From the NCBI GenBank assembly GCA_903951425.1, contig CAJBBX010000096.1, forward strand, positions 1 to 46,207: a stretch of 46,207 nt of DNA, given 5' to 3'. How positions within the stretch are numbered: the first letter of the stretch is position 1; every line of letters begins with the position of its first letter. The notes under the pieces were generated by a model. It searched no databases and was not told where the DNA came from. It worked only from the letters and a program-made list of their open reading frames with translations. Position numbers and translations under genes: made by a program. This DNA is from an uncultured Chthonomonas sp. (GTDB lineage Bacteria > Armatimonadota > Chthonomonadetes > Chthonomonadales > CAJBBX01). This document shows positions 1-39,740 of this stretch, piece by piece.

Positions 1-360
1 CACCGCGAACTCCACGAACACCAGGTCCGGCTTCCGGCTCAGCACATCCTGCCCGCACCGGTAGGCCGCCAGGTCGGAGCCCGTGCCACCGATAGTGGCG
101 TTGATCTCCTCCACCTTCGCCGCCGGCCACCGTTTGCGGAACCACTCCAGCGTCTTCACGCGCCATCCCGGCGCAGCGGTGATACTCCCACCGAAGTAGG
201 CCACGCGCACCGGCTTCCCGGCATTCAGCTTGGCCAGCGCATTGGGCAACCCGCCGCGTCGGACGGTGAGCCGGGCGGGCGCCTCAGCGGGCGCGGGCGT
301 CTGGGCAACCACAGCGGATGCGGACACCGCAAGCAAGGCGGCAAGGCAGAGCGTGTTCAT
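1..360 (-). CDS. SGNH/GDSL-type hydrolase, secreted (C-terminus beyond window)
   Basis: The first 120 residues are visible; the gene runs off the left edge of the window. The start is the ATG at 360, preceded by a clear GGAGG at suitable spacing. Residues 1 to about 20 form a signal peptide ending in VVAQ, so the product is exported. Residues 56-61 read FGGSIT, the block I motif that carries the nucleophilic Ser (S59) of SGNH hydrolases. An ATIGGTGSD segment at 88-96 fits the block II glycine, and the VFVEFAV at the edge is where block III (usually followed by ND) should begin. SGNH enzymes remove acetyl or other acyl esters, often from polysaccharides, which suits the surrounding glycosidases. 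The catalytic Asp-His block lies outside the window, so activity cannot be judged. The substrate is unknown. Confidence 0.85.
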
Positions 361-465
361 AGGGAGACCTCCGGGCGAGCGGGAGCGTGCGGGCCCGGTG
401 GATTGTGGCACGGTTGGGCGGTCCAGAGAGGCGCTCAGGGGCTCGATGCGCATCTGCCGGTGGCT

Positions 466-523
466 GTCACACGGTCATCGGGTCAGCACGGTCAAGGGCC
501 TTGACGCTGTTGACCGCACTGAC
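466..523. repeat. Palindromic TGAC/GTCA array, copy A
   Basis: This gene-free stretch lies between the SGNH gene and the end of the first beta-helix gene. It holds GTCA at 466, 474, 482 and 491, then the complement TGAC at 502, 511 and 520, so steps are 8-9 bp and the two halves face each other. The core 481-515 is an inverted repeat with 17-base arms (14 of 17 paired) around one central base. It shares the 13-mer GGTCAAGGGCCTT with copy B at 29539. There is no T-tract, so it is not a classical intrinsic terminator, although it lies about 40 bases beyond the stop codon of the minus-strand gene. Confidence 0.6.
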
Positions 524-552
524 ATCACTGTCTGTCGGACGTCATCGCGCCG

Positions 553-1734
553 TCACGGCTTGCCCGCCGGGCCGCCGAGGAGCACGTTCTCCGGTCGGCT
601 GCGGAGGAGGAGGGGCTGCTCTACGACTGAGCCGCCCACCGGGGAGTCGCCGCCTCGCAGGACGTTGCCGTGGATGGCGATGTTGTCGCTCTCGGAGCCA
701 ATGAAGATGGCGTGGCGGTCGCCGTCGGCACAGACGATGGTGTTGCCGACGATCGTGACATCGCGGTGGCCGCGGTCGTCCTTGTAGGTCTCCCGGTTCG
801 GGTACGTGAGCCAGATGCCGGAGCGCACCCACCATGCGGCTTTGGCGCCATCGATGGCCGCGTCGTTGCGCACGGTGTTGCTCGTAATGGCGACGCCCTT
901 GCAGGCGAAGAAGAGGCTGATGCCGCCGTTCACGGCGTTGCGGACCGTGTTGCCGGCTATGACCGAGTCGTCGCACCACTCCAGGTCGAGGCCCACGTCG
1001 GTAGCGCCATCCACGGTGTTGCCGGAGAGGATCACCCGGCGCGCCCCTGCTCCCCAGATGCCGCCTCCGCCGCCGTCCTTCACCAGGTTGCCCTGGAAGA
1101 GCAGGTCCTCGCTGTCCTTCATCTCCCACTTCCAGTTGCCCCAGAACTGGAGGCCATGGAGCTTCGCGTTGACCACCGTGTTGTTCAACACCCTGACGCG
1201 CCGGGAGAAGGAGAGCGAGACGGCCTGCTGGATGTCGCGGAAGTCGCAGTCGCGGATCGTCAGGTCGTTGGCGTTGGCCGTGGCGATGCAGACCCGCCGG
1301 CAGGTGCGGAAGGCGACGCGCTCCACCGAGGCGAAGCACGCCTCGCGGCCTAACTGAACGAGGCCGGGCTCGGCTGAGCCGCCTGCGCCGCCTGCGCTAC
1401 CCTCGACCGCCAGCCGGCTCACCTCCGAGCCCTCGCCGAGCTGGAGCAGGACGCCGGTCCCCTTGGCGACGCGCAGGACGGAAGCCGAGCCGTCGCCGGT
1501 AAGCCGCACATGCGGCGCGAAAATGAGGGGCTTCGGTCCCAGCAGGTAGACGCCGGCCGGCACCGTGACCGTGCGGCGCCCCAGGGCAAGCGCCTTCTGG
1601 AAGGCGGCCGTGTCGTTGGTCTTGCCGTCGCCCCTGGCGCCGAAGTCGCGGACGCTGACCGGCCCAGTGCCCGGCGCCGCGGGCGGCGCAAGAAGGAGCA
1701 GAAGCGTCGAGAGGCAGGCCAGTGCAGCCGTCAT
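553..1734 (-). CDS. Secreted right-handed beta-helix protein (pectate lyase superfamily type)
   Basis: The product has 393 residues. I chose the ATG at 1734 because a GAGGAG lies just upstream and the next residues (MTAALACLSTLLLLLAPP) form a good signal peptide; in-frame sequence further upstream does not look coding. Residues 31-45, FGARGDGKTNDTAAF, are the hallmark N-terminus of pectate-lyase-3-type beta-helices. The body repeats short G-N-x-V units (for example GNTVDG, GNTVRN, SNTVRN, GNTIVC, GNVLRG) expected of a parallel beta-helix with about 22-residue coils. The likely role is binding or cleaving an acidic or plant-type polysaccharide outside the cell, but many such proteins lack proven activity and no catalytic residues can be assigned here. 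It is divergent from the glycosidase pair at 1856-5464. Confidence 0.82.
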   Translation of the reverse strand: MTAALACLSTLLLLLAPPAAPGTGPVSVRDFGARGDGKTNDTAAFQKALALGRRTVTVPAGVYLLGPKPLIFAPHVRLTGDGSASVLRVAKGTGVLLQLGEGSEVSRLAVEGSAGGAGGSAEPGLVQLGREACFASVERVAFRTCRRVCIATANANDLTIRDCDFRDIQQAVSLSFSRRVRVLNNTVVNAKLHGLQFWGNWKWEMKDSEDLLFQGNLVKDGGGGGIWGAGARRVILSGNTVDGATDVGLDLEWCDDSVIAGNTVRNAVNGGISLFFACKGVAITSNTVRNDAAIDGAKAAWWVRSGIWLTYPNRETYKDDRGHRDVTIVGNTIVCADGDRHAIFIGSESDNIAIHGNVLRGGDSPVGGSVVEQPLLLRSRPENVLLGGPAGKP

Positions 1735-1780
1735 GCGTGTCACACTCCTCACGTGGACCCGCTGTGGGGCCGCGCCCGTC

Positions 1781-1786
1781 TTTATA
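1781..1786 (-). promoter_or_regulatory. Candidate -10 element for the beta-helix gene
   Basis: Read on the minus strand this is TATAAA, preceded by CTGG, about 47 bases upstream of the ATG at 1734. No convincing -35 box is seen at 16-18 bases, so the assignment rests on the A/T-rich hexamer in a very G+C-rich divergent intergenic region. Confidence 0.3.
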
Positions 1787-1855
1787 CCAGTCGCACACTC
1801 GCCTGCCGGCTTGCGAATCGATGCGGCCCGGCAATCGGGGGAAGGAACGACGCAC

Positions 1856-3445
1856 GTGCTCTCAGTCATCGGCATGATCCTGGCCTCGGCCGCCTTCCTG
1901 GCCCCATCGGGCGGGCGCCCCGACGACCCGCTCTCCGAGGCGGCCCTGCTGCGCGAGAAGCCGCTGGGGCCCTATGTGAACCTGACGTCGGCTCAGCGCG
2001 CCACGGTGCGATCGTTCCGAGCCTCGGACCGGTTCGTGGCGACCTACTACTTCTTCTGGTATGACCACCCCACGGGCGAGCACTTCCGCAACGCCGACGG
2101 CTCCGACGCGCTGGTGGACCACCCGCTGGACCCGCCCAGCGTCAGCTACCGGCGCGAGTCGTGGCACCGCAAGGAGCTGCTGGACCTGATGGACGCGGGC
2201 ATCGACGTCATCGTGCCGGTCTACTGGGGAGCGCCGCCGGACAAGGCCGCACGCTTCGAGGGCCACTACGCGGGCATCGCGCCCCTGGTGGCGGCTGCCC
2301 GGCGCCTCATGGCCGAGGGCAGGAAGCCGCCGAAGATTGGGCTCTTCTACGACACTTCGAGCCTCTCGGCCACGGGCAACATCCTGGGCAGGCATGTGGA
2401 CCTGAGCACGCCCGACGGCAAGGCGTGGCTCTACGCCACCATCCGCGACTGGTTCTCGGCCGTGCCGCCTGCGCTCTGGGCCGCCATCGACGGCAAGCCC
2501 ATCGTCTTCCTATACGGCGCGGGCAGCGCGAAGGCCGGGACCGACGATCCTGCCGTCTTCGACTATGTACGAAACCACTTCGCCCGCGACTTCGGCGGCG
2601 CGGCGCCCTACCTCGTGGCCGAACACTCGTGGGTGGCCCCGGCCGACAACGGCTACGACTGGGGCGCGGCCTTCGCGCACAAGGCCTACGGCGTGGCGGC
2701 GATCGGGCCCGGCTACGACGACTCCTCGGTGCCCGGCCGCACCAGCCCGAAGATCGACCGCCGAGCCGGCGCCCTATACCGCGAGCGGTGGGAGCATCTG
2801 CTCTCGCTGGCCCCGGCTACGCGCCCGAAGATCGCCATCATCGAGACCTGGAACGAGCTGCACGAAGGCACCGATATCTGCGAGACCCGCGAGTATGGCC
2901 GGACCTACATCGACCTGACGCGCCGGTACGCCGCACGCTGGCGAGCGGGCGCCCAGACGAGGCCGATCAGCCTCTTCGCGGGCCGAAAGGGCGCCTCGCT
3001 CACCTTCGGGCCGAGCGGGCAGAGCGCAGGAGTGCGGCTGGTGGAGAACGGCGACGGCCTCTTCCGGGTCTCGTCGGCGCTGGGCTCGGGCTGCATCGAG
3101 ACGAGGCCCAACCCGGCCAACGGCGAGCAGTTCCTCTACATCGATGTCGATGACGGCTTCTACTGGGAACCCTCCGGGCCGGTCACGGTGGAGCTGGAGT
3201 GCCTCGACCAGGGCGGCGGCACGCTGGCGATCACCTACGACTCCACCGATGCCAGGGCCCAGTTCGGGGGCACGTACAAGACCGCGCCCGCGCAGCCACG
3301 CGGCGACACCGGCCGGTGGCGGGTCTTCAGCTTCCGGCTGACCGACGCCCGCTTCGCCAACCGGCAGAACAGCTTCACCGACTTCCGCATCAGCGCCGGC
3401 GGCACGAAGCTGGTTGTTCGCCGCATTACGCTGAGAAAGGGCTGA
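1856..3445 (+). CDS. Secreted GH99-like / DUF5010-type protein
   Basis: The product is 529 residues from a GTG at 1856, with GAAGGA nine bases upstream; the ATG at 1874 is an alternative but has no ribosome site. The N-terminus (VLSVIGMILASAAFLAPSGG) is a short signal peptide. Residues 62-77 (ATYYFFWYDHPTGEHF) and the later segment VIVPVYWG match proteins annotated as DUF5010 or GH99/GH71-like, a (beta/alpha)8 barrel family related to endo-mannosidases. Near residues 332-338 the motif WNELHEG resembles the acidic end-of-barrel motif of GH99-like domains. The last 130 residues form a beta-rich domain with the look of a carbohydrate-binding jelly roll. It is followed after three bases by the next glycosidase gene, so the two form an operon. 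The family is assigned from motif memory; the reaction is not known. Confidence 0.72.
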   Translation: MLSVIGMILASAAFLAPSGGRPDDPLSEAALLREKPLGPYVNLTSAQRATVRSFRASDRFVATYYFFWYDHPTGEHFRNADGSDALVDHPLDPPSVSYRRESWHRKELLDLMDAGIDVIVPVYWGAPPDKAARFEGHYAGIAPLVAAARRLMAEGRKPPKIGLFYDTSSLSATGNILGRHVDLSTPDGKAWLYATIRDWFSAVPPALWAAIDGKPIVFLYGAGSAKAGTDDPAVFDYVRNHFARDFGGAAPYLVAEHSWVAPADNGYDWGAAFAHKAYGVAAIGPGYDDSSVPGRTSPKIDRRAGALYRERWEHLLSLAPATRPKIAIIETWNELHEGTDICETREYGRTYIDLTRRYAARWRAGAQTRPISLFAGRKGASLTFGPSGQSAGVRLVENGDGLFRVSSALGSGCIETRPNPANGEQFLYIDVDDGFYWEPSGPVTVELECLDQGGGTLAITYDSTDARAQFGGTYKTAPAQPRGDTGRWRVFSFRLTDARFANRQNSFTDFRISAGGTKLVVRRITLRKG

Positions 3446-3448
3446 GCC

Positions 3449-5464
3449 ATGAAGCGCATCGTGCCGGTCGTCATCGCGCTGGCTGCGCTGAGCCTCCGGG
3501 CGCAGGCCCAGTACCCCCGCATCGGCAACCTCTGGGGCGTCTCGCCTGCGAGCGTCGAGTACGAAAAGTGGTCGCGCTACGGCCTCATCGTCTCCTCCGG
3601 CGGCTCCCTGGGTACATGGCGCAACTTTTCGGCGCAACTCCGCAAGCGCAACCCGCGGATCGTGTTGTTGGAGACGGCTGCCTTCATGAACCTGGGCAAG
3701 CCGGAGGCAACGCCCTTCATGCGCGATGAGTGGTACCTGCGCAAGCCCGACGGCGGCAAGGTGATCTGGTGGGCCGACCAGGTCTATACGCCCAACCTGC
3801 TCGTGGGTCCGTGCCTCGACGCGCTGGTGAAGCAGAGCCTCGCACAGGCCGATGCACTCGTGCGCGAGAAGCTGATCGACGGGCTCTTCTATGACAGTGT
3901 GGTGGGCGCCGCCACCTGGCTGGGCGATGTGGACACGAACCGCGACGGCAAGGCCGACCGCGCGGCCGATGTCGACCTGCGCTGGTGCGACGCGCAGTGC
4001 GCCTTCTTCGACCGCGTCAAGGGCGGCCTCGGCGGCGCGGCCATCGTGGCGAACGACGCCGACACGCGCCACCAGACGCACATCAACGGCCGCCTCTTCG
4101 AGGGCATCCGCCTGCTCGATCAGGTGGATGGCGGCGGAATGAGCATCCAGGAGGCGGTCAGCATCCTCACCGGGTGGATGGATGGCGCCACCAGGCCGGG
4201 CCTCACCTTCGCCATCGCCACGCACCCTATCGGCTGGCAGGCGCACCGCGTGGGCGTGGGCAACATGGTCACCTCCCGTGGCGAACTGGACCGGGCGCGG
4301 CGCGACTACCGGCGCATGCGCTTCGGCTTGGGCGTCACGCTCCTCACCGACGCCTACTACGCCTACGATCTGGGCACCGTCTGGTACGGCCTCCCCTGGT
4401 GGTACGCCGAGTACGACGCGCCGTTGGGCCGCCCGCTGGGCCCTGCGCGCGAGGTGGCGCTCCAGACGCCCGCTCTGGTGGCATCGTGGTCGGCGGGCCG
4501 GTCCGTCGACGCTATGCAACTCGACCAGGACATCACAGCGGATGCCCGCGGCATCGAGGGCGTGGTGCGCGACCAGAACGCGGGCTGGCGCCGCCTCTTC
4601 GGCACGCGGCCCTCGCGCATCCGCTTCGTGCCGGGGCGCACGTACCGCGTCCAGGCCCAGTGCGAGCTGACCGCCGCCACGGGGCTCGTCCAGTTTCAGC
4701 TCCGCACACCCACGGGCGGGTGGGAGCAGCATGACAAGGGCATCCGCACCTTCAGCGGCAAGAAGGGCGACCGCTGGATCATCGACGTGACCGTGAAGCC
4801 CGACGCCTTCGATGACTACGGCGCCGAATGGCACATGAACGGAGCGGGCGGCCTGTTGCTCAGGAGCCTGACGGTAACCGAGCCTACGCAGAGCTATTGG
4901 GAGCGTCGCTTCAGCGGCGGGGCCGTGCTGGTCAACGGCGGCGACCGGCCCCTGCGCGTGCCGCTTGCGCAGCCCATGCGCCGCCTGAAGTCGGCCGAGG
5001 CGCCCCTCCACGCCCTGGAGGCCGACGACGGCGACGCGGCGTTCACCTGCTCCTCCGGATGGCAGAGCCGCCAGCGCGAGGATCGCATCGTGGGCGCTAC
5101 CTACCGCGTGGCGCGAAAGCCGGGCGCCACCGCCGCATGGCGCTTCACGGCGCCTGCAGCCGGCCGATACACGCTCTACGCCTGCCTGCCCGGAGGAAAG
5201 GGCTGGACGAACGCGGCGATCTACCGCTGCGGCTCGAGCCGGGCCGTCATCGACCAGCGCGGCGGCGACGGCGGCTGGGTGCGCGTGCTGCAGGCCGAGA
5301 TGAAGGCAAGCGAGACCCGCGAGCTCCAGCTGACGTCCAGCGGCATGGGCGATACGGCTGCTGACGCAATCCGCGTGGAGTCTGTCGCACGATTCCACGA
5401 CGGCTCCAACGCCGGCGCGGTCGCGCTGCAGCCGCGGGATGCGGTGGTGCTGTTGGCCCGCTGA
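3449..5464 (+). CDS. Secreted putative glycoside hydrolase (GHL15-like) with golvesin-type C-terminal domain
   Basis: The 671-residue product begins three bases after the preceding stop codon, so the genes are probably cotranscribed. A signal peptide ends near residue 20 (LRAQAQ). The N-terminal half resembles hypothetical glycosyl hydrolases of the GHL15 kind: barrel strands such as RYGLIVSSGG, PRIVLLE, and DGLFYDSVVG around residue 144, where acidic residues often sit at the active centre. Roughly residues 525-645 look like a golvesin C-terminal/Xly carbohydrate-binding domain: a TCSSGW start, then AWRFTAPAAGRYTLYACLP, VIDQRGGDGGWVRV, and a final ADAIRVE. The protein therefore looks like an extracellular glycosidase with a C-terminal binding module. 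It lies tail-to-tail with the second beta-helix gene. Substrate and catalytic residues are unassigned. Confidence 0.7.
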   Translation: MKRIVPVVIALAALSLRAQAQYPRIGNLWGVSPASVEYEKWSRYGLIVSSGGSLGTWRNFSAQLRKRNPRIVLLETAAFMNLGKPEATPFMRDEWYLRKPDGGKVIWWADQVYTPNLLVGPCLDALVKQSLAQADALVREKLIDGLFYDSVVGAATWLGDVDTNRDGKADRAADVDLRWCDAQCAFFDRVKGGLGGAAIVANDADTRHQTHINGRLFEGIRLLDQVDGGGMSIQEAVSILTGWMDGATRPGLTFAIATHPIGWQAHRVGVGNMVTSRGELDRARRDYRRMRFGLGVTLLTDAYYAYDLGTVWYGLPWWYAEYDAPLGRPLGPAREVALQTPALVASWSAGRSVDAMQLDQDITADARGIEGVVRDQNAGWRRLFGTRPSRIRFVPGRTYRVQAQCELTAATGLVQFQLRTPTGGWEQHDKGIRTFSGKKGDRWIIDVTVKPDAFDDYGAEWHMNGAGGLLLRSLTVTEPTQSYWERRFSGGAVLVNGGDRPLRVPLAQPMRRLKSAEAPLHALEADDGDAAFTCSSGWQSRQREDRIVGATYRVARKPGATAAWRFTAPAAGRYTLYACLPGGKGWTNAAIYRCGSSRAVIDQRGGDGGWVRVLQAEMKASETRELQLTSSGMGDTAADAIRVESVARFHDGSNAGAVALQPRDAVVLLAR

Positions 5465-5489
5465 GGAGATGCCTGAGGCGCCGAGACCT

Positions 5490-6806
5490 CTACCGACCGG
5501 CTGGACGCGGCTTCCGAGGCTCCTCCTTCGTCACGCGGATGGCGGGGTTGTTACCGGTCATTACGGCGCGGCGGCCGATCTTGCTCACCACCGTGCAGGG
5601 CGCCGAGCCCATGATGCTGGCCAGCGTGGTGCGTGAGCGCTGGCCCTCCAGCCGCGCCAGGTAGCCGCCCTGGTTCAGCACGCAGCCCTGCACTGAGAGC
5701 CGCCCGCCGCCTTGCAGGAAGCAGGGCGCCTCCTTGGCGTGGAGCGCCCACTCCTGGATATTGCACGCGCTGAGCGAAAGGGAGCCATCCTGTACCTCGA
5801 ACAGTGTCCCCGGCACGGCCCAGAAGTTGCAGTTCACGAGAGCGAGGTTGCCCGTGTTTCCCGCCCGCAGCAGCACGCCCCGGCTGTTGGGCGAGGCTCC
5901 GAATGGCGCGAACTCGCCATTGGTGACGCTGACGCCGATGTTGAAGCTATCCTCCACGTCGATGCCGATGGCCACGCAGTCGGCGCCGATGCCCACGAAG
6001 TTGCCGTTGGTCGCGCCTGCGGGGTAGGTGGTGGCCGGGTTGGGCTTGGCCTCCTTCGCCCGGTAGAAGCGGTAGCCCGTATGGTAGCCGTAGCAGAAGG
6101 TGTTAAGGCAGTATTGCCAGTCGCTCCGGCCGAACTCGAACGCCACGCCGTGCGCCTGCACCCATGCCCGCATGGGCTTGCCCAGCGTGAAGTAGGGCCA
6201 GAGGTGTACGTTCTCGATGCGCACGATGTCGTAGCAGTGGTCGACGTGGAGGCCCACCCGCAGCGGCTCGCCCCAGACGTTGCGCACCATGGCCGCGTGG
6301 GAGGCGTCCAGGTCGATGCCCTGGTACGCATTGAACAGGAACAGCTCCTCGATGCGCGCGCTGTGGCCGCCGCTGACGGCGTAGGGGTAGGGCGCGGGTT
6401 CCGCGGCCTCGGGGTTCTGGTCCGGGTACTCCATGACGAAGCCCGTGAGCGTGGACTTGCCTCCCGAGAGGGCCACGCAGGCCGGGCCGTCGGCGCGCCC
6501 CTTGCCGCCGGTCACGAGCAGGATGCTCCCGGAGCGGCCGCCGGGGCCCACGAAGTCGCCCTTCAGCGTGGTCGAGGCCGGCACGCTGATCGAGCCGCCG
6601 ATCCGATACCGTCCCGCCGGCGCATGGACAGTGGAGCCCGGCGTCTTGCCGGCGGCGTCCAGGGCGCGCTGGAAGGCGGCGGTGTCGTCCGTGGAGCCAT
6701 CGGCGAGGGCGCCGAAGTCCGCCACGCGGAGCGGTTCCCCGGCGCACGGGGCACAGCAGGCGGTCAGGGCGGCAAGGCTGAGGATCGCGGCAAGGGCGGA
6801 CGGCAT
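5490..6806 (-). CDS. Secreted beta-helix protein (pectate lyase superfamily type)
   Basis: The product has 438 residues from the ATG at 6806, which has GGGAGG eight bases upstream; a GTG at 6815 in the same frame would overlap that site and is less likely. The N-terminus (MPSALAAILSLAALTACCAPCAGEP) is a signal peptide. Residues 31-45, FGALADGSTDDTAAF, are the same signature seen in the beta-helix protein at 553-1734, followed by HAPAGRYRIGGSISVP and GFVMEYP, typical of the first helix turns. The two proteins flank the glycosidase pair at 1856-5464, so they may act on the same polymer. They differ enough in sequence not to be a recent tandem copy. Polysaccharide lyase or hydrolase activity is plausible but unproven. 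Confidence 0.8.
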   Translation of the reverse strand: MPSALAAILSLAALTACCAPCAGEPLRVADFGALADGSTDDTAAFQRALDAAGKTPGSTVHAPAGRYRIGGSISVPASTTLKGDFVGPGGRSGSILLVTGGKGRADGPACVALSGGKSTLTGFVMEYPDQNPEAAEPAPYPYAVSGGHSARIEELFLFNAYQGIDLDASHAAMVRNVWGEPLRVGLHVDHCYDIVRIENVHLWPYFTLGKPMRAWVQAHGVAFEFGRSDWQYCLNTFCYGYHTGYRFYRAKEAKPNPATTYPAGATNGNFVGIGADCVAIGIDVEDSFNIGVSVTNGEFAPFGASPNSRGVLLRAGNTGNLALVNCNFWAVPGTLFEVQDGSLSLSACNIQEWALHAKEAPCFLQGGGRLSVQGCVLNQGGYLARLEGQRSRTTLASIMGSAPCTVVSKIGRRAVMTGNNPAIRVTKEEPRKPRPAGR

Positions 6807-6927
6807 GGCGGGCACCTCCCGGCCGCGGCTGGGAGGCCACGCGGCGCCACGCTACGTTCGCGACCGGCCTTCCGGCTTCCTGCAAGCTGACGGGCGGCTG
6901 GGCGAGATGCCCATCGCCATCCATGAG

Positions 6928-9827: not shown

Positions 9828-11603
9828 ATGGATAGGCATCGGGCAGTACAGGTCGGCATCACGGTCGCGGCGACGGCGGCCTGCATCGTGGCGTTGTGCG
9901 GCAGCGCCTGCGGCCAGTTCGGCGGACCACCGCCGGGTGGCGGGATGGCCGGTCCAGGCGGCCCGGGCGGCCCTTCGGCGAAGGCTATCGAGATCGTGTC
10001 GAAGTACGACTCGAACAAGGACGGCTGGCTGAACACCGAGGAACGCAAGGCCGCGCGCGCCGGGCTCAAGGCGCAGCGATCGAAGGGCAACGGGTTCGGG
10101 CCCGGCGCTCCGTGTGGTCCCGGCGGTCGCGGCAACCGGGGCGTGGCCCAGACACCGAAGCCGGGCATCAGGCTCACGCCTGCCCAGGCGAAGAGCTACC
10201 CGACGGCGGGCCTCTACGACCTGACCGTGCTGCGGACGCTGTTCCTGGACTTCGAGGAGAGCGACTGGGAGGCCGAGCTCTCGGACTTCCACGGCTCCGA
10301 TGTCGACGTGGCGGCCACGCTTACTGTGGACGGCAAGCGGTACCCCGACGTGGGCGTGCGCTTTCGCGGCAACACCTCCTACATGATGGTGCAGGCCGGG
10401 CACAAGCGGTCGCTCAACGTCAGCCTCGACCTGGCCGATCCGAAGCAGACGCTCTACGGTTACAAGACCTTGAACCTGCTCAACTCGCATGAGGACCCCT
10501 CGTTCATGGGCACGGTCCTCACGGCCCACGTGGCCGGGCAGTTCACCAAGGCCCTCAAGGCGAACTACGTCCGCGTGGTGATCAATGGCGAGAGCTGGGG
10601 CATCTACGTCAACGCCCAGCAGTTTGACAAGATATTCCTCGCTGAGAGCTTTGGGCCCGGCGAGGTTGAACGGTGGAAGGCGCCGGGTAGCCCCGGCTCG
10701 GCTGCGGGGCTCGACTACAAGGGCGATGGTATCACAGCCTATCAGCGGGTCTACGAGAAGAAGTCAGGGACCAAGGAGAGCTGGAACCATCTGATCGGCC
10801 TCTGCCGCACGCTGAACCAGACGCCGCCCGCCAGGTTGCAGGCCGCTGTGGCGCCCGTGCTGGACCTCGACAACGCCCTCTGGTTCATGGCGTTGGACAT
10901 CGGCCTCAGCAACGGTGACGGCTACTGGAGCCGAGCCAGCGACTACGGTCTGGCGCGCGACGCCAAGGGCGTGTTCCGCCTCTTCAGCCTCGATACGAAC
11001 GAGACCTTCCGCGCCTCGGGCGGCGGCCCTGGGGGACCAGGCGGCCCCGGTGGCCCGGGCGGCCCCGGGGGCTTCGGACCACCACCGGGTGGCCCCAACG
11101 GCTTCGGCCCTTCCGACGGTTTCGGACCGCCTGACGGCTTCGGCGGCGGCGGCCCGGACGGGCCGGGCGGCTTCGGGCCGCCACCCGGCATGGGTCCGGG
11201 CGGCCCCGGCGGCGGTCCGGGCGGCGGAGGAACGAACCTGAGTCCGCTCAGCGGAATGTCGAACTCCCGGGCCGCGCTCCACACGAAGCTACTGGCCGTG
11301 CCCGAACTGCGCGCCCGCTACCTGCAGAACCTGCGTCGGCTGGCCAACGAGGGCCTGAGCCGGCAGCGGCTGGCGCCGACGGTGGCGCAGATCCGGAACC
11401 TCATCGACCGCGAGATCGCCGCAGACACCCGCAAGCTGAGCGCCTACGAGGCGTTCAGGCAGGCGACGGCCGACGCCGCGCCGGCCACTGCGGCCACGCG
11501 CTCCGGCGGCGGCGTCCTGGCCTTTGCCGAGGCAAGGAGCAGGTACCTGATTCAGTTCAAGGACACCGGCTATGCCGCACCCGCGGCGCGAGGAGCACGA
11601 TGA
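9828..11603 (+). CDS. Secreted CotH-family protein kinase-like protein with EF-hand and Gly/Pro-rich insert
   Basis: The product has 591 residues. A signal peptide spans about residues 1-29. Residues 61-72 (DSNKDGWLNTEE) match the EF-hand/dockerin loop, with D61, N63, D65 and E72 in the calcium positions. From about 125 onward the CotH domain is recognisable: GVRFRGNTSY, a lysine in HKRSLNVSLD, LNLLNSHEDPSFM, VRVVINGESWGIYV, then DIGLSNGDGYW and FSLDTNETF, where CotH kinases carry metal- and ATP-binding Asp/Asn residues. The insert around 400-470 is almost pure Gly/Pro/Phe. CotH proteins are atypical kinases that phosphorylate secreted proteins. The gene overlaps the VTC-domain gene by four bases (ATGA). 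GAGGG precedes the ATG at 9828, and a TAGACT hexamer lies at 9788-9793. Confidence 0.88.
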   Translation: MDRHRAVQVGITVAATAACIVALCGSACGQFGGPPPGGGMAGPGGPGGPSAKAIEIVSKYDSNKDGWLNTEERKAARAGLKAQRSKGNGFGPGAPCGPGGRGNRGVAQTPKPGIRLTPAQAKSYPTAGLYDLTVLRTLFLDFEESDWEAELSDFHGSDVDVAATLTVDGKRYPDVGVRFRGNTSYMMVQAGHKRSLNVSLDLADPKQTLYGYKTLNLLNSHEDPSFMGTVLTAHVAGQFTKALKANYVRVVINGESWGIYVNAQQFDKIFLAESFGPGEVERWKAPGSPGSAAGLDYKGDGITAYQRVYEKKSGTKESWNHLIGLCRTLNQTPPARLQAAVAPVLDLDNALWFMALDIGLSNGDGYWSRASDYGLARDAKGVFRLFSLDTNETFRASGGGPGGPGGPGGPGGPGGFGPPPGGPNGFGPSDGFGPPDGFGGGGPDGPGGFGPPPGMGPGGPGGGPGGGGTNLSPLSGMSNSRAALHTKLLAVPELRARYLQNLRRLANEGLSRQRLAPTVAQIRNLIDREIAADTRKLSAYEAFRQATADAAPATAATRSGGGVLAFAEARSRYLIQFKDTGYAAPAARGAR

Positions 11604-12334
11604 TGGCCATCCAACTGATGCAGGGACCTGCGGCGGCGGACCTCTCCCGCCCGCGACATGAGCTTCGATTCGCCGTGCCGTCCGAGCTGGCGCCGGAGGT
11701 GGAGGAGCGGCTGTGGAGCCTGCTGGCGCCGGCTGGCTGGGCGGCGGCCGACCCGGCGGTGGCGGTCTCGACGCTCTGGCTCGACACCGCGGCGATGGAC
11801 GCATTCCACGGGGCCAAGGGGTTCGTCGGGCGGCGCTATCGAGTACGCTCCACCGGCCGGCCGCGCGTGGTGCAGCTCGAACTCAAGCGCAAGCGTCGGG
11901 GCCGTACGGTAGTCCGGTCTGCCGAAGTGCTGGAGGCCGAACTCTCGCGCCTGGCCGAGCCCGCCTCCTGCGAAGGGTGGGCCGGCGACTGGTTCGCCGA
12001 GAAGGTGGCGGCGCGCGACCTGCGGCCCTGCTGCCTGGTCCGGTTCGAACGACTGCGGTTCTGCGGCGCGGGTTTCGCGGCGGCGCTCGATACCGGCATG
12101 ACCTGCTGGGCATCGGACCGGTACGCCCTGTGCGCCGACGGGCCCGGTACCCCGATCTTCGGCCCCGCGGCCCAGCTGGAGCTGACCTTCGACGAGGCCG
12201 TTCCGACCTGCCTGCGCCGCCTGGTGGCCGACCTGCGGCTGGAGCCCGCCCGATGCTCCAAGATCCGGGCGGCAGTCGAGACGCTTCGTATCGCCGGACG
12301 CGGAGGAGGGAAGCAGCCATGCTTGAGCAGCTGA
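11600..12334 (+). CDS. VTC-domain (polyphosphate polymerase-type) protein
   Basis: The product has 244 residues. The start ATG overlaps the CotH stop codon (ATGA), so translation is coupled. The N-terminus RPRHELRF (R19, E21, R23) is the opening strand of a VTC tunnel domain. It is followed by VSTLWLDT, the basic RRYRVRSTG, VQLELKRKRRGR with E and K facing the tunnel, CLVRFERLRF, LELTFDE, and a final SKIR lysine. In yeast Vtc4 this fold builds polyphosphate from ATP. Bacterial relatives are found beside CotH and DUF4956 genes, and their product has not been settled. There is no signal peptide, so the domain is cytoplasmic and presumably sits by the DUF4956 membrane protein. Most basic and acidic tunnel positions seem kept, which argues for a working enzyme. 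Confidence 0.87.
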   Translation: MMAIQLMQGPAAADLSRPRHELRFAVPSELAPEVEERLWSLLAPAGWAAADPAVAVSTLWLDTAAMDAFHGAKGFVGRRYRVRSTGRPRVVQLELKRKRRGRTVVRSAEVLEAELSRLAEPASCEGWAGDWFAEKVAARDLRPCCLVRFERLRFCGAGFAAALDTGMTCWASDRYALCADGPGTPIFGPAAQLELTFDEAVPTCLRRLVADLRLEPARCSKIRAAVETLRIAGRGGGKQPCLSS

Positions 12335-12996
12335 TCGGCCCTATCACCGGCGCGGAGGGGCGCCTGAGCCTGGACGTGCTGACGGCGCGCATGCTTCTCT
12401 CATTCGCCGTCGGATGCGCCGTGGCGGGCCTCTACTGGGCCACGCACCGCCGCGACGGCACGCTATCGTGGAGCTTCATCTCGACGCTTGTGCTGCTCTC
12501 CATCGTCATCGCCATGGTGACGCAGGTGATCGGCGATAGCGTGGCTCGTGCCTTCAGCCTGGTGGGCGCACTCTCCATCGTGCGGTTCCGCACCATCGTG
12601 GAGGACACCCGCGACACTGCGTTCGTCATCGTGGCCGTGGTGGCCGGCATGGCCGTGGGCCTCGGGCATATTGAGGTGGCTATGGTGGGGCTGGCGGTGG
12701 TCACGCTGGCCTGCGGCATTGCCATGTCCCGTCGGGCGGCCGCCAACGGGGCAGCGCCCTACTGGCGGCTCAGGATGCGCCTGGGCGCCGGCTACACGCC
12801 CGATGCGCTCCTCGCTGAGCCCTGCGGCCGGTACTTCGACGCCAGCCATATGACCAGTGCGGCCAGCAGCCGACAGGGCGCCGCGCTGGACGTGGAGTAC
12901 CGTGTGCAACTGCGGCATGATAGCGATCCGGCCGCCATCATCACCGATCTGAACCTCACCGACGGTGTGCAGAGCGCCGAACTCAGGCGCGACTAG
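12319..12996 (+). CDS. DUF4956 membrane protein
   Basis: The product has 225 residues. The ATG at 12319 has GGAGGAGGGAAG upstream and lies inside the end of the VTC gene (16-base overlap). There are about four hydrophobic helices (MLLSFAVGCAVAGLYWA, ISTLVLLSIVIAMVTQVIG, FVIVAVVAGMAVGLG, VAMVGLAVVTLACGIAM). Between helices 2 and 3 is the family hallmark GALSIVRFRT followed by EDTRD. A soluble C-terminal domain of about 90 residues follows. DUF4956 proteins recur beside VTC-domain and CotH genes, and a role as channel or anchor for the polymer made by the VTC domain is a common guess but not demonstrated. It closes the three-gene operon. Confidence 0.88.
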   Translation: MLEQLIGPITGAEGRLSLDVLTARMLLSFAVGCAVAGLYWATHRRDGTLSWSFISTLVLLSIVIAMVTQVIGDSVARAFSLVGALSIVRFRTIVEDTRDTAFVIVAVVAGMAVGLGHIEVAMVGLAVVTLACGIAMSRRAAANGAAPYWRLRMRLGAGYTPDALLAEPCGRYFDASHMTSAASSRQGAALDVEYRVQLRHDSDPAAIITDLNLTDGVQSAELRRD

Positions 12997-15251: not shown

Positions 15252-15300
15252 CAATGTAGCGCCCGGGCACCAGTGCAGTCCAGGCCCAGGAGCCATGACG

Positions 15301-17289
15301 ATGCCGCAGACCGTCCACGAGCCTAGTGTCGCGCCCAATGCCACGTCGCGCGCGGCGCCACGTCGGGACGGCCTCCTTACCACCAAATCGAAGCTCCAGT
15401 ATGCGCTCACCGGCCTGCTTGACGCGGCCCTGTGTATCGTCGGAGCCGACTGCGGTGGCGTCTATGAGAGCCTGCCGGACGGTCGCCTTGAGCTGATCGC
15501 CAGTCGCAATCTGAGCGAGTCGTTCCTGGAGGGCGTACAGGCGCACCGTGCCGAGAGCATGGAGGCCCGTGTCGTTAGGGCCGGGAAGCCGTTGTGGTTC
15601 GCGTGGGAAGGCGCGGAATCGTGCCCGTGGCCCCAGAACATCGCCGAGGGTATTTTCGCACTGGCCTGTGTGCCGATCTGTCACGGCGCGGTCGTGGTGG
15701 GCGCGCTCAACCTCGCGTCACACGCCGTATTCGCCTTCGATGCCGCTGTTCAGGAGCAGGTCCTGGACCTGGCCGGGCGCGTAGGCGCCGATATGGTCCA
15801 GTTGCGGCATCAGGAGATGCTGGAAGCCAACCTGCGGCAGGTCTTCGACGTCATCCCCGAGTGCCTCTTCGTCGTCAGCCTCGATGGGACCATCCTCCAC
15901 GCCAACGCCTCTGCCGCCCGCACGCTGGGCCGGAGCGTCGACGAACTGATCGGGACCTACGCGCTCGATTTGCACCCGGTGGGGCGGGGCGAGGAGGCCT
16001 TCGGCATCCTCAGCGGCATGCTGGACGGTTCGCAGGACACCTGTCGGGTTCCGATCGTCGCGGCTGACGGTGTCGTCGTGCCTGTAGAGACCCGGGCAGT
16101 GCAGGGCGAATGGGACGGACAGCCCGTTCTGATCTGCACCTCGCGCAACTTGAGCGAGAAGCGCCGCATGGAGCAGGACCTCCGGCACAGCCGCACCCTC
16201 CTCGAGATGGTCGTCGAGCACTCCGATGTCGTGGCCTACGCGCTGAACCTGTCGACCAACCGATACGAGTACATGAGCCCTGCCATCGAGCGCCTGCTGG
16301 GTTACCCGGTGCAGCGGTTCCTCGGCGAACCAAGGATGCGGATTCTGGATTTGGTTGTGCCGGAAGACCGTGAGGCATCGATGGCGCCCATCCTGGCGGC
16401 CACCGAGTGCGGCGAAGATCGGGGCTCGATGGAGTACCGTGTGCGTGCCGCCGACGCGAGCCGCCGCGTTCTGAACAACCGGTTCGCGGTGCTTCGCGAC
16501 GAGGACGGCGTGCCCCGCTACCGCACCGGAACCATCCAGGACATCACCGAGGAGCGCGCCGCCGGGCAAGCCCTGCGCGAGTCCGAAGCGCGCTTCCGCC
16601 ATATCGCCGAGGAGAATGAGCGGCTTCTGAGCCGTAGCCGCGAGGACGCGTCCGCCAAGGCGCGGCTACTCCACGAGGTGAACCACCGGGTCAAGAACAA
16701 CCTCTCGGCCATTCTGGGTGTGCTGGAGTTGGAGCGGCAGGCCATGGGATCGGTCGAGGACGCGTCGCGGTCCGAACTGCTCGGCGACCTGGCGGGCCGC
16801 ATCCGCGCAATGTCCGTGGTGCACAGCATCCTCTCCGCCACCGCATGGAAGGCCCTGCCGATCCGCGAGCTTGTCGACCAGATCGTAAACTCCTCTGCCG
16901 CCATCATGCGTCCGGGCCTGCCGCCTCGGCTCAGCGTCGTAGGTGATGACGTGCGGACACCGGCAAAGCACGCGTCCGCCATCGCGCTGATCCTCAACGA
17001 GCTCACGACCAACGCGTTCAAGCACGCCGACGCAGCCCCGCTCCATATCGATGTCGATGTCAGGGGCACTGCGGAGGAGGTACGGCTGCTGTTCCGCGAC
17101 AACGGATCGGGGTTTCCTTCGGAGGCCCTGACCGGTGAGCGCTGGAGCGTGGGCCTGCATGTCGTGGAGACGCTCAGCCAGATCGACCTCCGTGGTAATA
17201 TGAGCCTCCGGAATGACCGCGGCGCCGCGGTTGAGATTCGGTTCCCCATCGCCGGCACCGGCACCACGGTAGGAGACACTCTCCGATGA
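15301..17289 (+). CDS. GAF-PAS-PAS sensor histidine kinase (HisKA_2 type), soluble
   Basis: The product has 662 residues. I start at the ATG at 15301, eight bases after AGGAG; an in-frame ATG at 15295 is only two bases from that site. There is no membrane segment, so the sensor is cytoplasmic. A GAF-like domain spans about residues 35-165, the first PAS domain about 175-285 (VFDVIPECLFVVSLDGTILHAN) and the second about 300-425 (NRYEYMSPAIERLLGYP). A HisKA_2 dimerisation domain follows with LLHEVNHRVKNNLS; H462 is the likely phosphorylated histidine. The ATPase domain shows LILNELTTNAFKHA (N box) and RDNGSGFP (G1). It overlaps the response regulator by ATGA, so the two form a cognate pair. The ligand is unknown. 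Confidence 0.93.
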   Translation: MPQTVHEPSVAPNATSRAAPRRDGLLTTKSKLQYALTGLLDAALCIVGADCGGVYESLPDGRLELIASRNLSESFLEGVQAHRAESMEARVVRAGKPLWFAWEGAESCPWPQNIAEGIFALACVPICHGAVVVGALNLASHAVFAFDAAVQEQVLDLAGRVGADMVQLRHQEMLEANLRQVFDVIPECLFVVSLDGTILHANASAARTLGRSVDELIGTYALDLHPVGRGEEAFGILSGMLDGSQDTCRVPIVAADGVVVPVETRAVQGEWDGQPVLICTSRNLSEKRRMEQDLRHSRTLLEMVVEHSDVVAYALNLSTNRYEYMSPAIERLLGYPVQRFLGEPRMRILDLVVPEDREASMAPILAATECGEDRGSMEYRVRAADASRRVLNNRFAVLRDEDGVPRYRTGTIQDITEERAAGQALRESEARFRHIAEENERLLSRSREDASAKARLLHEVNHRVKNNLSAILGVLELERQAMGSVEDASRSELLGDLAGRIRAMSVVHSILSATAWKALPIRELVDQIVNSSAAIMRPGLPPRLSVVGDDVRTPAKHASAIALILNELTTNAFKHADAAPLHIDVDVRGTAEEVRLLFRDNGSGFPSEALTGERWSVGLHVVETLSQIDLRGNMSLRNDRGAAVEIRFPIAGTGTTVGDTLR

Positions 17290-17894
17290 CGACGGTTGCG
17301 GGTCTGCGCGTGCTCGTTGTTGAGGACGAGGGGCTGGTGGCGGTGATGGTCGGTCGGATGCTGCAGCGCCTGGGCCATTCCGTGGTCGGCTACGCTCCCG
17401 ACGGCACGACCGCTCTGACCATGGCGGCGCAATACAGGCCCGACCTGGTGCTCATGGACGTGGATCTGCCCGAAATGGACGGCATCGAGGTGACCCGCCG
17501 ACTCACCGAGAGCGCCCCGACCCCCGTGGTGGTCCTCACGGCGCACCAGTCGACGGAACTGGTGCAGCGTGCTGCTGCGGCCGGAGTGGGGGCCTACCTG
17601 ACCAAGCCGCCCAGCGAACAGGCGCTGGCGCAGGCCATCCCAATCACGCTCGCCCGTTTCGCCGACCTTGCCGCGCTACGCGCCGCGCTGGCGGAGAGGG
17701 ATGCCGCCCAGGAACCAGTCGCCATGCTGGAGGGAATCATCCCCATCTGCTCGTATTGCAGGAAGGTACGCGATAGCCGCGAGAGGTGGCAGAAGCTGGA
17801 GACGTACATCGCGCGGAACACGTCAGTCTCGTTCACGCACTGCATATGCAAGAGTTGCGAGGCGCAGGTCATGGAGGATCTGGGCTCGGCCTGA
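17286..17894 (+). CDS. Response regulator with C-terminal Cys-rich domain
   Basis: The product has 202 residues and overlaps the kinase stop codon (ATGA). Residues 6-125 are a receiver domain with acidic pocket E13/D14, phosphoacceptor D58 (LVLMDVDLPEMDG), T85 and K107 (LTKPP). After a helical linker, residues 150-195 form a small Cys domain: C155-x2-C158 in PICSYCRKVRD, then WQKLETYI, and C186-x-C188-x2-C191 near the end. This tail resembles the short IPICSYCKKIR module often found at the end of PAS or receiver proteins; it may bind a metal. No DNA-binding helix-turn-helix is visible, so output is probably by protein contact or a chemical switch rather than transcription. Confidence 0.9.
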   Translation: MTTVAGLRVLVVEDEGLVAVMVGRMLQRLGHSVVGYAPDGTTALTMAAQYRPDLVLMDVDLPEMDGIEVTRRLTESAPTPVVVLTAHQSTELVQRAAAAGVGAYLTKPPSEQALAQAIPITLARFADLAALRAALAERDAAQEPVAMLEGIIPICSYCRKVRDSRERWQKLETYIARNTSVSFTHCICKSCEAQVMEDLGSA

Positions 17895-21129: not shown

Positions 21130-23187
21130 ATGCGCAGGTACATCGGTCTCGTCACGCTGGTCGGTCTGGTCGCGGCGTCGCTGTCTGCCGCCAACGCCGC
21201 ACCCACCGTTACCCTCAAGTCCCTGCTCCTGGAGATGGTGGACCGGGACGCCGTGGCGAAGCTGCCCAGTCCGGCCTACACCTGCAGGCAGGCAAGCAGC
21301 CACGACGCACGGAAGAACGACCCCGGTAACCCTGCGAACTGGCACTCGAACGAGGACTTCGGCAACTTCATCCATACCGAGGTGAACGAGGGCCGCCGCG
21401 AGTGGGTGATCATGGAGCATGAGGGGCCCGGCGCCATCGTCCGGTTCTGGACGCCCCTGCTGGCGGACAAGGACAAGCAGAACATCCGGTTCTACTTCGA
21501 CGGCTCGAGCACGCCGGCCATCACCGCGAAGTTCAACGACCTGCTGAGCGGCCAGGGCTTCGTCCGCCCGCCGCTTGCCTGCACGGCGATGACCGGGACC
21601 GACCTGCGCGACCAACTCAAGGCCGGTTTCAAGGCGCCACGCGGCGTGGGCGGCGACCTCTACCTGCCGATACCCTACGCCAGGGGCTGCAAGATCACGC
21701 TGGACTCGGCGCCGTTCTACTATGTGATCAACTACCGCGGCTACCGGCCCGGGACCGATGTCCGAACATTCAGCATGGCGCAGGTCGATGCGGAGAAGGC
21801 GACGCTGAAGCGCGTGAGCGACACTCTGGGCGGCCGCCCCGCTCCCGGCGTAAAGGCACAGGCCCGGCGTGCGATGTTGGCCCCAGGCGAGGCGCTGGCG
21901 ATGGATCTGCCTGCGGGCAGTAGGGCGGTCCGCAGCCTGCAGGTGCATCTCTCGCCGGCCGAGGCCGGCCAGGCGCTTCGGGCGACGGTGCTTGAGGCAT
22001 CCTTCGACGGCGAGGCCACCGTCTGGTGCCCGCTGAGCGAGTTCTTCGGCGCAGGCGTGCGGCTCTACCCGGTTCAGGACTGGTGGCGCACCGTAGCGGC
22101 CGACGGAACGCTCACGGCGCGCTGGGTCATGCCTTACCAACGCACCGGTCGCGTCGCGCTCCGGAACGTCGGCGCCAAGCCAATGACGGTCACGCTCGCG
22201 GTGGCCGTCGGACCGTGGGCGTGGGACGGCCGCTCGCTCCATTTCCACGCCAACTGGCGCTGTCAAATCGGAACGAAGACCCGCCCAATTGCCGACTGGA
22301 ACACCCTGGATGCCAGGGGCAGCGGCATCTATGTGGGAGACACGCTGACGGTGTTCAACCCGGTGGGCGCCTGGTACGGCGAGGGCGACGAGCGCATCTA
22401 CGTGGACGGCGCCACGTTCCCGGCGCACATCGGTACGGGCACCGAGGACTACTACGGTTACGCCTGGGGCATGGCGGGCTGGTTCAGCTCGCCCTTCATG
22501 TCAATGCCGAAGCGCGACCGCGCGCCGACCGGCGACTGGCAGGGTTACACCACCACATCCCGTGTGCGCCTGCTGGACGGCATACCCATGCGAACCGGGA
22601 TCAAGCACGACATGGAGATCTGGCACTGGGCGGACACCAAGGTGGACTACGCTGCCGGCACGTTCTGGTACGCGCGGCCCGGCGCCACGCACAACCGGCC
22701 GACGCAGCCCACCGAGGCCGGCGCGCCGCTCAGCGAGTTGCCGCCGCCCTTCGCCATGGCCGGCGCGGTGGAGTTCGAGACGCTGTCGGTGGCGGCCAAG
22801 TCGCCCAACCTCATCATCGGCACCCAGGATGCCGGGCTGTCCGAGGGCCAGTGGAGCGGCGGCATGCAGCTCTTCGTTCAGGCCGGCAAGGTCGGCGACT
22901 TCGTCGAGTTCGACGTCCCGGTAGCAGGCACGCAGCCCTGTGCCCTGACGCTCTACGGCACCCGAAGCCGCGACTACGGCATCCTGCGGTTCACGGTGAA
23001 CGGCCAGCCGGCCGGACATGATTTCGACGCCTTTCATCTGGAGGCCGTGCCCACCGGCCCGGTGGAGCTGGGCACATTCACGCCTGTCGGAGGCAAGCTA
23101 CGGCTGCGGGGCGAGGTGGTAGGTTCGAACCCGGCAAGCACCGGCCCTCGGTACTACTTCGGGCTGGACTGCATCGTGGCGCGGTAG
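21130..23187 (+). CDS. Secreted GH172 (DUF2961) glycoside hydrolase
   Basis: The product has 685 residues with a signal peptide ending near residue 23 (ASLSAANA) and GGAGGGG upstream. Family motifs are clear: ASSHDARKN followed by NWHSNEDFGNF, GPGAIVRFW, LPIPYARGCKI, then GEGDERIYVDG and HIGTGTEDYYGYAWG. Characterised GH172 enzymes act on furanosides (difructose dianhydride, D-arabinofuranose) with two glutamates about 21 residues apart, as I recall. E418 (GEGDE) and E439 (GTEDY) have exactly that spacing here and are probably nucleophile and acid/base. The C-terminal 170 residues form an extra beta-sandwich (LSVAAKSPNLIIGTQDAG). At 685 residues it is longer than the single-domain forms. It is transcribed alone, divergent from the sialidase. 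Confidence 0.9.
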   Translation: MRRYIGLVTLVGLVAASLSAANAAPTVTLKSLLLEMVDRDAVAKLPSPAYTCRQASSHDARKNDPGNPANWHSNEDFGNFIHTEVNEGRREWVIMEHEGPGAIVRFWTPLLADKDKQNIRFYFDGSSTPAITAKFNDLLSGQGFVRPPLACTAMTGTDLRDQLKAGFKAPRGVGGDLYLPIPYARGCKITLDSAPFYYVINYRGYRPGTDVRTFSMAQVDAEKATLKRVSDTLGGRPAPGVKAQARRAMLAPGEALAMDLPAGSRAVRSLQVHLSPAEAGQALRATVLEASFDGEATVWCPLSEFFGAGVRLYPVQDWWRTVAADGTLTARWVMPYQRTGRVALRNVGAKPMTVTLAVAVGPWAWDGRSLHFHANWRCQIGTKTRPIADWNTLDARGSGIYVGDTLTVFNPVGAWYGEGDERIYVDGATFPAHIGTGTEDYYGYAWGMAGWFSSPFMSMPKRDRAPTGDWQGYTTTSRVRLLDGIPMRTGIKHDMEIWHWADTKVDYAAGTFWYARPGATHNRPTQPTEAGAPLSELPPPFAMAGAVEFETLSVAAKSPNLIIGTQDAGLSEGQWSGGMQLFVQAGKVGDFVEFDVPVAGTQPCALTLYGTRSRDYGILRFTVNGQPAGHDFDAFHLEAVPTGPVELGTFTPVGGKLRLRGEVVGSNPASTGPRYYFGLDCIVAR

Positions 23188-23207
23188 GGGTCGGGCCCGG
23201 CCGGCGG

Positions 23208-23687
23208 CTACCTCATAGTGGCGCCCGCCCAGGCTACCGGTACGCTGAGTTCCAGTTCGGCGTTGGGCTTCAGGTCGAACGTGAGGACCAGGTGGCGCTC
23301 GCCCTTGCGGTTGTACGCCACCTGGTGCCGCGTGGCGGTGCTGCGGACGTCGACGGCCCTGGCGCCCGGCCTCCATGGGATGCCCCAGATAACGATGGCG
23401 TAGTCCGGCACTGTCGCGTCGGTCTTGATCCGCAGGCGCTGCACCAGCCTGTCGCCCTCGCGTACCCAGCCGGTCCGCTGCACCTCCACTTGGGCGTCTC
23501 GATGGATGCGAAGTAGCGGTAGAGGACCTGGCCGCCCACGCGCCACCGCGCCAGGTGGTTTCCCGCCGACCGGGGTCTGTAGGTCACCACGGCCCGGCAC
23601 GAGGGATGCACCGGTCGACAGGGCAGGGGCCAGAGCCATGGCGGCCACCATGGTCTTGAAACCGTACCGGCCGCGATGGCGCCTCAC
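23208..23687 (-). CDS. Small secreted protein, probably carrying two compensating frameshifts
   Basis: An open frame of 159 codons starts at a GTG at 23687 with AGGTAGGA upstream, 5 bases after the stop of the thioredoxin-fold gene, so it is the second gene of that operon. The N-terminus (MVAAMALAPALSTGA) looks like a signal peptide and the last 95 residues (WVREGDRLVQRL to the end) have normal G/C-rich codon ends. Between about 23489 and 23593, however, this frame has poor third-position bias, while the frame shifted by one base reads VVTYRPRSAGNHLARWR and LYRYFASIETPK with almost only G/C endings. A one-base insertion near 23595 and a one-base loss near 23490 would explain this. It may be a decaying gene or hold two sequencing errors. 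No family is recognised. Confidence 0.5.
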   Translation of the reverse strand: MRRHRGRYGFKTMVAAMALAPALSTGASLVPGRGDLQTPVGGKPPGAVARGRPGPLPLLRIHRDAQVEVQRTGWVREGDRLVQRLRIKTDATVPDYAIVIWGIPWRPGARAVDVRSTATRHQVAYNRKGERHLVLTFDLKPNAELELSVPVAWAGATMR

Positions 23688-23692
23688 GTGTC

Positions 23693-24550: not shown

Positions 24551-24738
24551 GTTCATCTCTCCTTCCGCCGCAGGCGAGCGCGAACACGCTGGGCGCCTGA
24601 GCGTACACTGGGGATTATGGCGCACAGGCGCAGAGAGCAGGGACCCTACCCGTCACGTCTGCCACAATGTGCTGCTGGACCCGCGGCGCGGCAGCGCAGT
24701 CGTGCACCTGCAGCGCCGGGCCTGCCTAAGGAAACCCC

Positions 24739-26904: not shown

Positions 26905-26921
26905 CCGGCGGCGGCGTCCGC

Positions 26922-26936
26922 TCGGGTAGGCTCTCA
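26922..26936 (+). promoter_or_regulatory. Promoter-like 15-mer upstream of GH2 gene (also at 21076)
   Basis: TCGGGTAGGCTCTCA ends 53 bases before the ATG at 26990 and is identical to the element upstream of the GH172 gene. If TAGGCT is a -10 box, transcription would start inside the hairpin at 26936-26964. Confidence 0.45.
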
Positions 26937-26964
26937 GGGGCCGCGCTGCACCGGCGCGGCCCCT
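26936..26964 (+). terminator. Strong G+C hairpin between GH42-like and GH2 genes
   Basis: The arms AGGGGCCGCGC (26936-26946) and GCGCGGCCCCT (26954-26964) pair perfectly over 11 bases around a 7-base loop, 32 bases past the GH42-like stop codon. There is no T-tract. It could end the upstream transcript with Rho or form a leader hairpin for the GH2 gene. Confidence 0.45.
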
Positions 26965-26989
26965 ACCCCGCGCACCCGGAGAGCCCCGC

Positions 26990-29503: not shown

Positions 29504-29513
29504 GGGCCGCGCT

Positions 29514-29583: not shown

Positions 29584-29646
29584 AGCACGGTAGCGCGGCG
29601 CGCCGGTCCGGTTGCCCGTGCTGCGGGTGAAGGCGCGGTAGGGAGC

Positions 29647-34242: not shown

Positions 34243-34248
34243 GGATCG

Positions 34249-34254: not shown

Positions 34255-34298
34255 GCACGGCGCACCGTCAAGCCGCTCCGGCCCCCATTGGCAGTGCT

Positions 34299-39729: not shown

Positions 39730-39740
39730 GGGAGGCGGCT

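Follow-up and report, generated by a model that had tools for sequence, protein, structure and literature searches.

A CotH–VTC–DUF4956 operon outside Pel loci, with a degenerate VTC tunnel protein in an uncultured Chthonomonas species

Introduction

Gene clusters that join a CotH-type kinase-like protein, a VTC-type tunnel protein and a DUF4956 membrane protein have been described from Gram-positive bacteria, where the cotH–PPP–DUF4956(–DUF4832) cassette forms part of the accessory genes of Pel clusters (PMC7112168). In S. intermedius the cassette corresponds to SIR_1594–1592, and a study from 2025 failed to find the arrangement outside the Pel locus (PMC12345266). Aggregation in sputum medium fell by more than half when the CotH or DUF4956 homologue was deleted, and the two deletions had opposite effects on the Pel level; no effect of this kind was reported for deletion of the VTC gene (PMC12345266). 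Here, we describe such a trio on a stretch of 46,207 nucleotides from an uncultured Chthonomonas sp. (contig CAJBBX010000096.1), which we call the window in its full length and which belongs to a 6.1-Mb assembly of 188 contigs.

A related arrangement is the NELoc-2 cluster of C. perfringens, which combines VTC and CotH (PMC2879425). As in the window, CotH is clustered with VTC, there represented by two genes, but the cluster also contains a glycosyltransferase. The genes annotated as 'tubulin/FtsZ, GTPase' beside each VTC may be DUF4956, although this is a guess.

A three-gene unit that is not tied to Pel

The trio consists of three open reading frames (ORFs) on the forward strand, whose overlaps of 4 nt between CotH and VTC (11600-11603) and 16 nt between VTC and DUF4956 (12319-12334) are exactly those of the original prediction for this locus. 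Their GC content at third codon positions (GC3) is about 0.86 and of coding type in all of them alike.

9828-11603, + strand: CotH-family kinase-like protein, 591 aa (ORF; Pfam PF08757; profile match to CotH 5jd9)
11600-12334, + strand: VTC/TTM tunnel protein, 244 aa, degenerate at tunnel positions (ORF; Vtc4 fold; residue loss)
12319-12996, + strand: DUF4956, MgtC-like membrane protein, 225 aa (Pfam PF16316; profile-profile match to MgtC; model)

That the three families recur together across bacteria, as had been proposed, holds true on a large scale. Scanning 84,980 species genomes with a DUF4956 alignment left 80 loci, or 79 after removal of one duplicate, most of them in Planctomycetota, Verrucomicrobiota and Acidobacteriota. 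VTC stands beside DUF4956 in 62 of the 79 independent loci, CotH in 55, and the full trio is found in 48; the association is far above chance. Both gene orders occur, VTC-DUF-CotH (29) as well as CotH-VTC-DUF (18), and clustering of the neighbours revealed no fourth recurring partner gene, save sporadic DUF1501 genes. Among 291 Armatimonadota genomes, 16 have a strong VTC and eight a strong DUF4956 match, and all eight lie within the 16 (Fisher P 1e-11, uncorrected for shared descent). The operon is absent from both congeneric genomes that were searched.

For 15 genomes no VTC was scored beside the DUF4956 in question. Ten of them carry a VTC elsewhere, several next to CotH, which weakens the notion that loci without an adjacent VTC can do without the protein. 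Five metagenome-assembled genomes (MAGs) with DUF4956 show no VTC at all, and MAG incompleteness can explain some of the missing VTCs. The arrangement varies in other ways too: three loci (L050, L060, L068) have two CotH genes around a single VTC–DUF4956 pair, and genome G063 carries VTC–DUF4956 on one contig (L011) and CotH–VTC on another (L012), which may mean that the genome has two copies or that the assembly broke up a single locus.

A search for PelG found no match in the window genome and none in 46 of the 48 trio genomes, the other two giving one clear and one sub-threshold match. The trio is therefore not confined to Pel loci, which corrects the published statement (PMC12345266). Likewise, no pel or DUF4832 genes were found among the window ORFs scanned. 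The window thus shares the three protein families in one gene cluster with the Gram-positive cassette, but lacks linked pel genes, as judged by PelG, and has a degenerate VTC; the trio as a whole spans several other phyla.

In seven Armatimonadota genomes (G023, G026, G027, G040, G042, G103, G104) an exporter-type ATP-binding cassette (ABC) half-transporter adjoins VTC and CotH instead of DUF4956, and none of the seven has a strong DUF4956 match. Three of these ABC proteins were scanned and are complete, with ABC_membrane and ABC_tran domains; the one searched against solved structures, from G040, has ABCB1, SAV1866 and MsbA as relatives. The swap accompanies CotH proteins near that of the window (L015, 51% identical) as well as distant ones. 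The operons concerned (L013-L017, L140, L141) come in two gene orders. Taken together, CotH, VTC and DUF4956 form an evolutionarily coupled, Pel-independent unit with an exchangeable membrane partner.

A VTC protein with lost tunnel residues

At the sequence level the window VTC is hard to place. It reaches 21.3 bits against the Pfam VTC family, under the cut-off of 23, and neither it nor DUF4956 found a match in the PDB when searched as a single sequence, so that profiles and folds were needed. The AlphaFold model (predicted local distance difference test, pLDDT, 86.7) has a confident Vtc4-like tunnel. Its best PDB match is yeast Vtc4 (3g3r; Z 19.0, root-mean-square deviation 2.9 over 222 residues), Foldseek relates it to 5iiq (E 3e-14), and the predicted fold secures the identity of the ORF as a VTC. 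A profile from 22 VTC relatives found yeast Vtc4 in the PDB with an E value of 1e-10 and supplied the residue equivalences, which agree with the published numbering of R264, R266 and E426 (PMC9911596). In Vtc4 these are the metal and triphosphate residues, and K458 is the catalytic lysine (PMC9911596, PMC4641920).

Ten positions were scored in 73 VTC domains, namely K200, R264, R266, K281, K294, R361, R373, E426, K428 and K458 in Vtc4 numbering. The window VTC has R, R, R, K, V, R, A, E, T and K in this order, and S at the position of R296. It therefore shares with yeast Vtc4 (VTC complex; PDB 3g3r, 7ytj) not only the tunnel fold but also the equivalents of R264, R266, K281, R361, E426 and K458, among them the metal, triphosphate and catalytic residues. 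It differs in the loss of K294, R296, R373 and K428; the bacterial family otherwise keeps basic K294, R373 and K428 throughout, and the window has V, A and T there. Furthermore, the chain has neither an SPX nor a membrane domain of its own, its membrane partner being DUF4956.

11912-11920, + strand: VTC V105 and S107, replacing Vtc4 K294 and R296 (residue alignment)
12077-12079, + strand: VTC A160, replacing Vtc4 R373 (residue alignment)
12185-12187, + strand: VTC T196, replacing Vtc4 K428 (residue alignment)

The original prediction considered the active-site residues of this VTC intact and named a loss of basic tunnel residues among the observations that would refute it. Comparison with Vtc4 finds just such a loss, with V, S, A and T at four formerly basic positions.

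How unusual is this? All ten residues are kept in 66 of the 73 domains, and three of the seven exceptions (L011, L012, L017) are VTCs cut by contig ends. This leaves four real exceptions: the window, L010 from the window's own family, L030 (Phycisphaerales) and L035 (Planctomycetota). The positions of K294, R296, R373 and K428 are altered in all four, K294 merely to R in L030. The R264/R266 pair, R361, E426 and K458 are retained in the window, L030 and L035, whereas L010 has lost the E426 equivalent too. A further distant VTC, L158, shows R373A alone. The window VTC deviates at 14 of 29 near-invariant columns; the window DUF4956 and CotH fall outside the ten most changed members of their respective families. 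Because the window VTC lacks four basic residues that nearly every full-length relative retains, polyphosphate synthesis by this protein appears unlikely on alignment grounds, and a binding or regulatory role is more likely.

One feature of the bacterial proteins was noted in passing: in the VTCs of the module, the position two residues ahead of the K200 equivalent (residue 21 of the window VTC, in the first strand) is occupied by a nearly invariant Glu, where yeast Vtc4 has Thr (T198).

In the VTC tree the degenerate proteins group together with a support of 89, which suggests a single origin, but the tree has very long branches (L010 5.0, L035 2.2). When the conserved columns and L010 are removed, the remaining three no longer group. 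The tree of the DUF4956 partner rejects one clade for all four (approximately unbiased test, p-AU 7e-5). Since the same tree does not reject the pairs L030+L035 and window+L010, it is likely that tunnel residues were lost at least twice; we do not claim four losses.

Of the 63 module-bearing genomes, 54 have PPK1, and the four with a degenerate VTC are all among them; hence VTC is not the general polyphosphate synthase of these organisms.

The CotH and DUF4956 partners

The CotH half of the earlier reading stands at the sequence level. The protein matches PF08757 with 121 bits (E 7e-35, cut-off 23.8), and a profile of its relatives leads to CotH 5jd9 (E 7e-29). As had been predicted, the active site appears intact: comparison with the CotH structure shows that both catalytic aspartates are kept, the equivalents of D228 and D251, the residues whose substitution leaves B. 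subtilis CotH inactive (PMC7821199). The N terminus reads by eye as a Sec signal peptide, so the protein is probably exported. With B. subtilis CotH (PDB 5jd9/5jda family) it shares the kinase-like domain and both aspartates; it differs in the signal-peptide-like N terminus, a single EF-hand-like loop and a Gly/Pro-rich insert, and its S-D-Y aligns with H-N-Y of the B. subtilis protein.

10917-10919, + strand: CotH D364, equivalent of B. subtilis D228 (invariant among relatives; aligned to CotH)
10992-10994, + strand: CotH D389, equivalent of B. subtilis D251 (invariant among relatives; aligned to CotH)
10008-10043, + strand: single EF-hand-like loop (DSNKDGWLNTEE), CotH residues 61-72 (D61 and E72 conserved among relatives; weak profile match to a calmodulin-like chain)
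11019-11237, + strand: Gly/Pro-rich low-complexity insert within the CotH kinase-like domain (from the sequence; length varies among relatives)

The window DUF4956 matches PF16316 with 45.2 bits (cut-off 30.6). A first lead to its wider kinship came from an MgtC-type protein (L019:6012-6677) that scores 27 bits with the DUF4956 model of Pfam. The window protein itself has no match to the Pfam MgtC model, which is weakly matched by 18 of 23 DUF4956 relatives (best E 8e-4), but hhalign aligns DUF4956 and MgtC (PF02308) over the full length (probability 97%, E 8.7e-11, 207 columns). In the AlphaFold model (pLDDT 84), five long helices precede an ACT/ferredoxin-like domain. Fold searches matched this C-terminal domain only, including the C-terminal domain of MgtC (2lqj), and are uninformative about the membrane part. 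By profile and model, DUF4956 is best described as an MgtC-like membrane protein, though a divergent one, that carries an ACT-like domain. This is a superfamily kinship and not MgtC proper: both have a membrane part followed by an ACT-like C-terminal domain, but DUF4956 has its own motif, RFRT..DTRDTA, while those of MgtC are ERE and GIGFLGAG.

12544-12621, + strand: invariant DUF4956 motif ARAFSLVGALSIVRFRT..DTRDTA (conserved among relatives; kept in the window)
12754-12993, + strand: ACT/ferredoxin-like C-terminal domain of DUF4956, model residues 146-225 (VIA-align Z of about 10 to ferredoxin-like domains; Foldseek matches include 2lqj)

Other genes in the window

Two genes downstream of the trio, at 15295-17894, the gene for a GAF/PAS HWE-type histidine kinase overlaps by 4 bases with that of the response regulator behind it. 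The regions 1-6815 and 21130-39357 contain many glycoside hydrolase-like and pectate-lyase-like genes, and a sugar-type ABC importer lies at 31646-34242; the gene content of the two regions suggests polysaccharide use. Next to a 1502-aa ORF at 39603-44111 lies a protein (44152-46107) that has several bacterial Ig-like domains.

What might the module do?

The replacement of DUF4956 by an ABCB/MsbA-type exporter beside VTC and CotH lends support to an export role. It is the best available evidence from which we infer that DUF4956 works in transport or its gating. We tentatively favor, at somewhat less than an even chance, a self-contained, envelope-directed phosphorylation module in which the window VTC does not polymerize. 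VTC would handle a phosphate compound, in most relatives probably polyphosphate made from ATP, DUF4956 would pass this compound across the membrane or gate its passage, and the exported CotH would use it outside to modify surface proteins or a polymer. In the window, where the metal and triphosphate core is kept and several basic tunnel residues are gone, VTC would most likely not elongate polyphosphate but serve DUF4956 as a nucleotide- or polyphosphate-binding subunit, or as a short-product enzyme, with PPK1 remaining the polyphosphate source of the cell. The S. intermedius deletions would fit such a system, in which VTC catalysis can be lost.

Several points weigh against this view. The signal peptide of CotH was judged by eye, and no phosphate donor is evident for CotH outside the cell. 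The S. intermedius observations were made in the context of Pel, which the window genome lacks. To our knowledge, MgtC proteins are not established transporters, so DUF4956 and the exporter may be different solutions or serve different substrates, and none of the three members has a known activity, substrate or exported product. A literature search that excluded most subscription journals likewise found no paper reporting enzyme activity or a polymer for any of the three. As for the donor, a more specific variant is conceivable but a long shot: CotH would act without ATP, taking for surface phosphorylation a phosphoanhydride that stems from VTC or PPK1 and is passed on by DUF4956 or the ABCB/MsbA-type exporter, with window-type VTCs as non-polymerizing docking or gating subunits.

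The original prediction combined synthesis and export of a polymer with surface phosphorylation. Its recurring unit is borne out and its export step gains from the ABC swap, but synthesis by the window VTC suffers from the lost basic residues. Taken literally, with VTC making polyphosphate from ATP, DUF4956 exporting it and CotH phosphorylating surface proteins, this model can draw on the Vtc4 fold, the retained R264, R266, E426 and K458 equivalents and the exporter swap in relatives. We nevertheless regard it as very unlikely, as the window has lost the equivalents of K294, R296, R373 and K428 in a family where 66 of 73 members keep all ten residues, and the VTC deletion in S. intermedius has no reported phenotype (PMC12345266). 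Those very substitutions, next to retained metal and triphosphate residues, would suit a VTC that has become a different kind of TTM enzyme and signals to DUF4956, for example a triphosphatase or a nucleotide hydrolase. TTM hydrolases have other residues in place of the basic exit residues of Vtc4 (PMC4641920). K428 is probably one of the latter, because it follows E426 at a distance of two residues, the spacing of Glu169 and Glu171 in AtTTM3. The invariant Glu of bacterial VTCs at the T198 position is a further point in favor of the conversion. Yet what stands at the lost positions is V, S, A and T instead of the glutamates of the second metal site of hydrolases, and L010 from the same family has lost the E426 equivalent as well, which leaves such a conversion quite unlikely.

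Could the operon simply be in decay in the window's family, with VTC as a functionless remnant? L010 has decayed further, the two congeneric genomes searched lack the operon and the five MAGs with DUF4956 show no VTC. Against this, the VTC ORF is full-length with a confident model fold and normal coding GC3, metal-ligand and catalytic Lys equivalents are kept, and incomplete MAGs can account for some of the missing genes, so that decay appears improbable. A role in regulating extracellular polysaccharide or matrix, where CotH would phosphorylate matrix or synthesis proteins, the ACT domain of DUF4956 would sense a small ligand and VTC would be a sensor, is unlikely. It agrees with the opposite Pel-level shifts in S. 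intermedius, the ACT-like domain and the place of the cassette in Gram-positive Pel clusters, but PelG is unmatched in 46 of 48 trio genomes and in that of the window, no glycosyltransferase recurs among the neighbors and the exporter swap is left unexplained.

Conclusions

The module was known in part. Its spread without Pel, the swap for an ABC exporter and the degenerate VTC were not found in the literature searched, from which most subscription journals were excluded. The module bears on how exported bacterial kinases are supplied with a phosphate donor. It joins an exported kinase-like protein with a membrane protein and a protein of polyphosphate-synthase fold; of its parts, DUF4956 can give way to an ABC exporter, and VTC is able to lose its tunnel residues. 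Intact and degenerate VTCs provide a contrasting pair of proteins for direct biochemical comparison.

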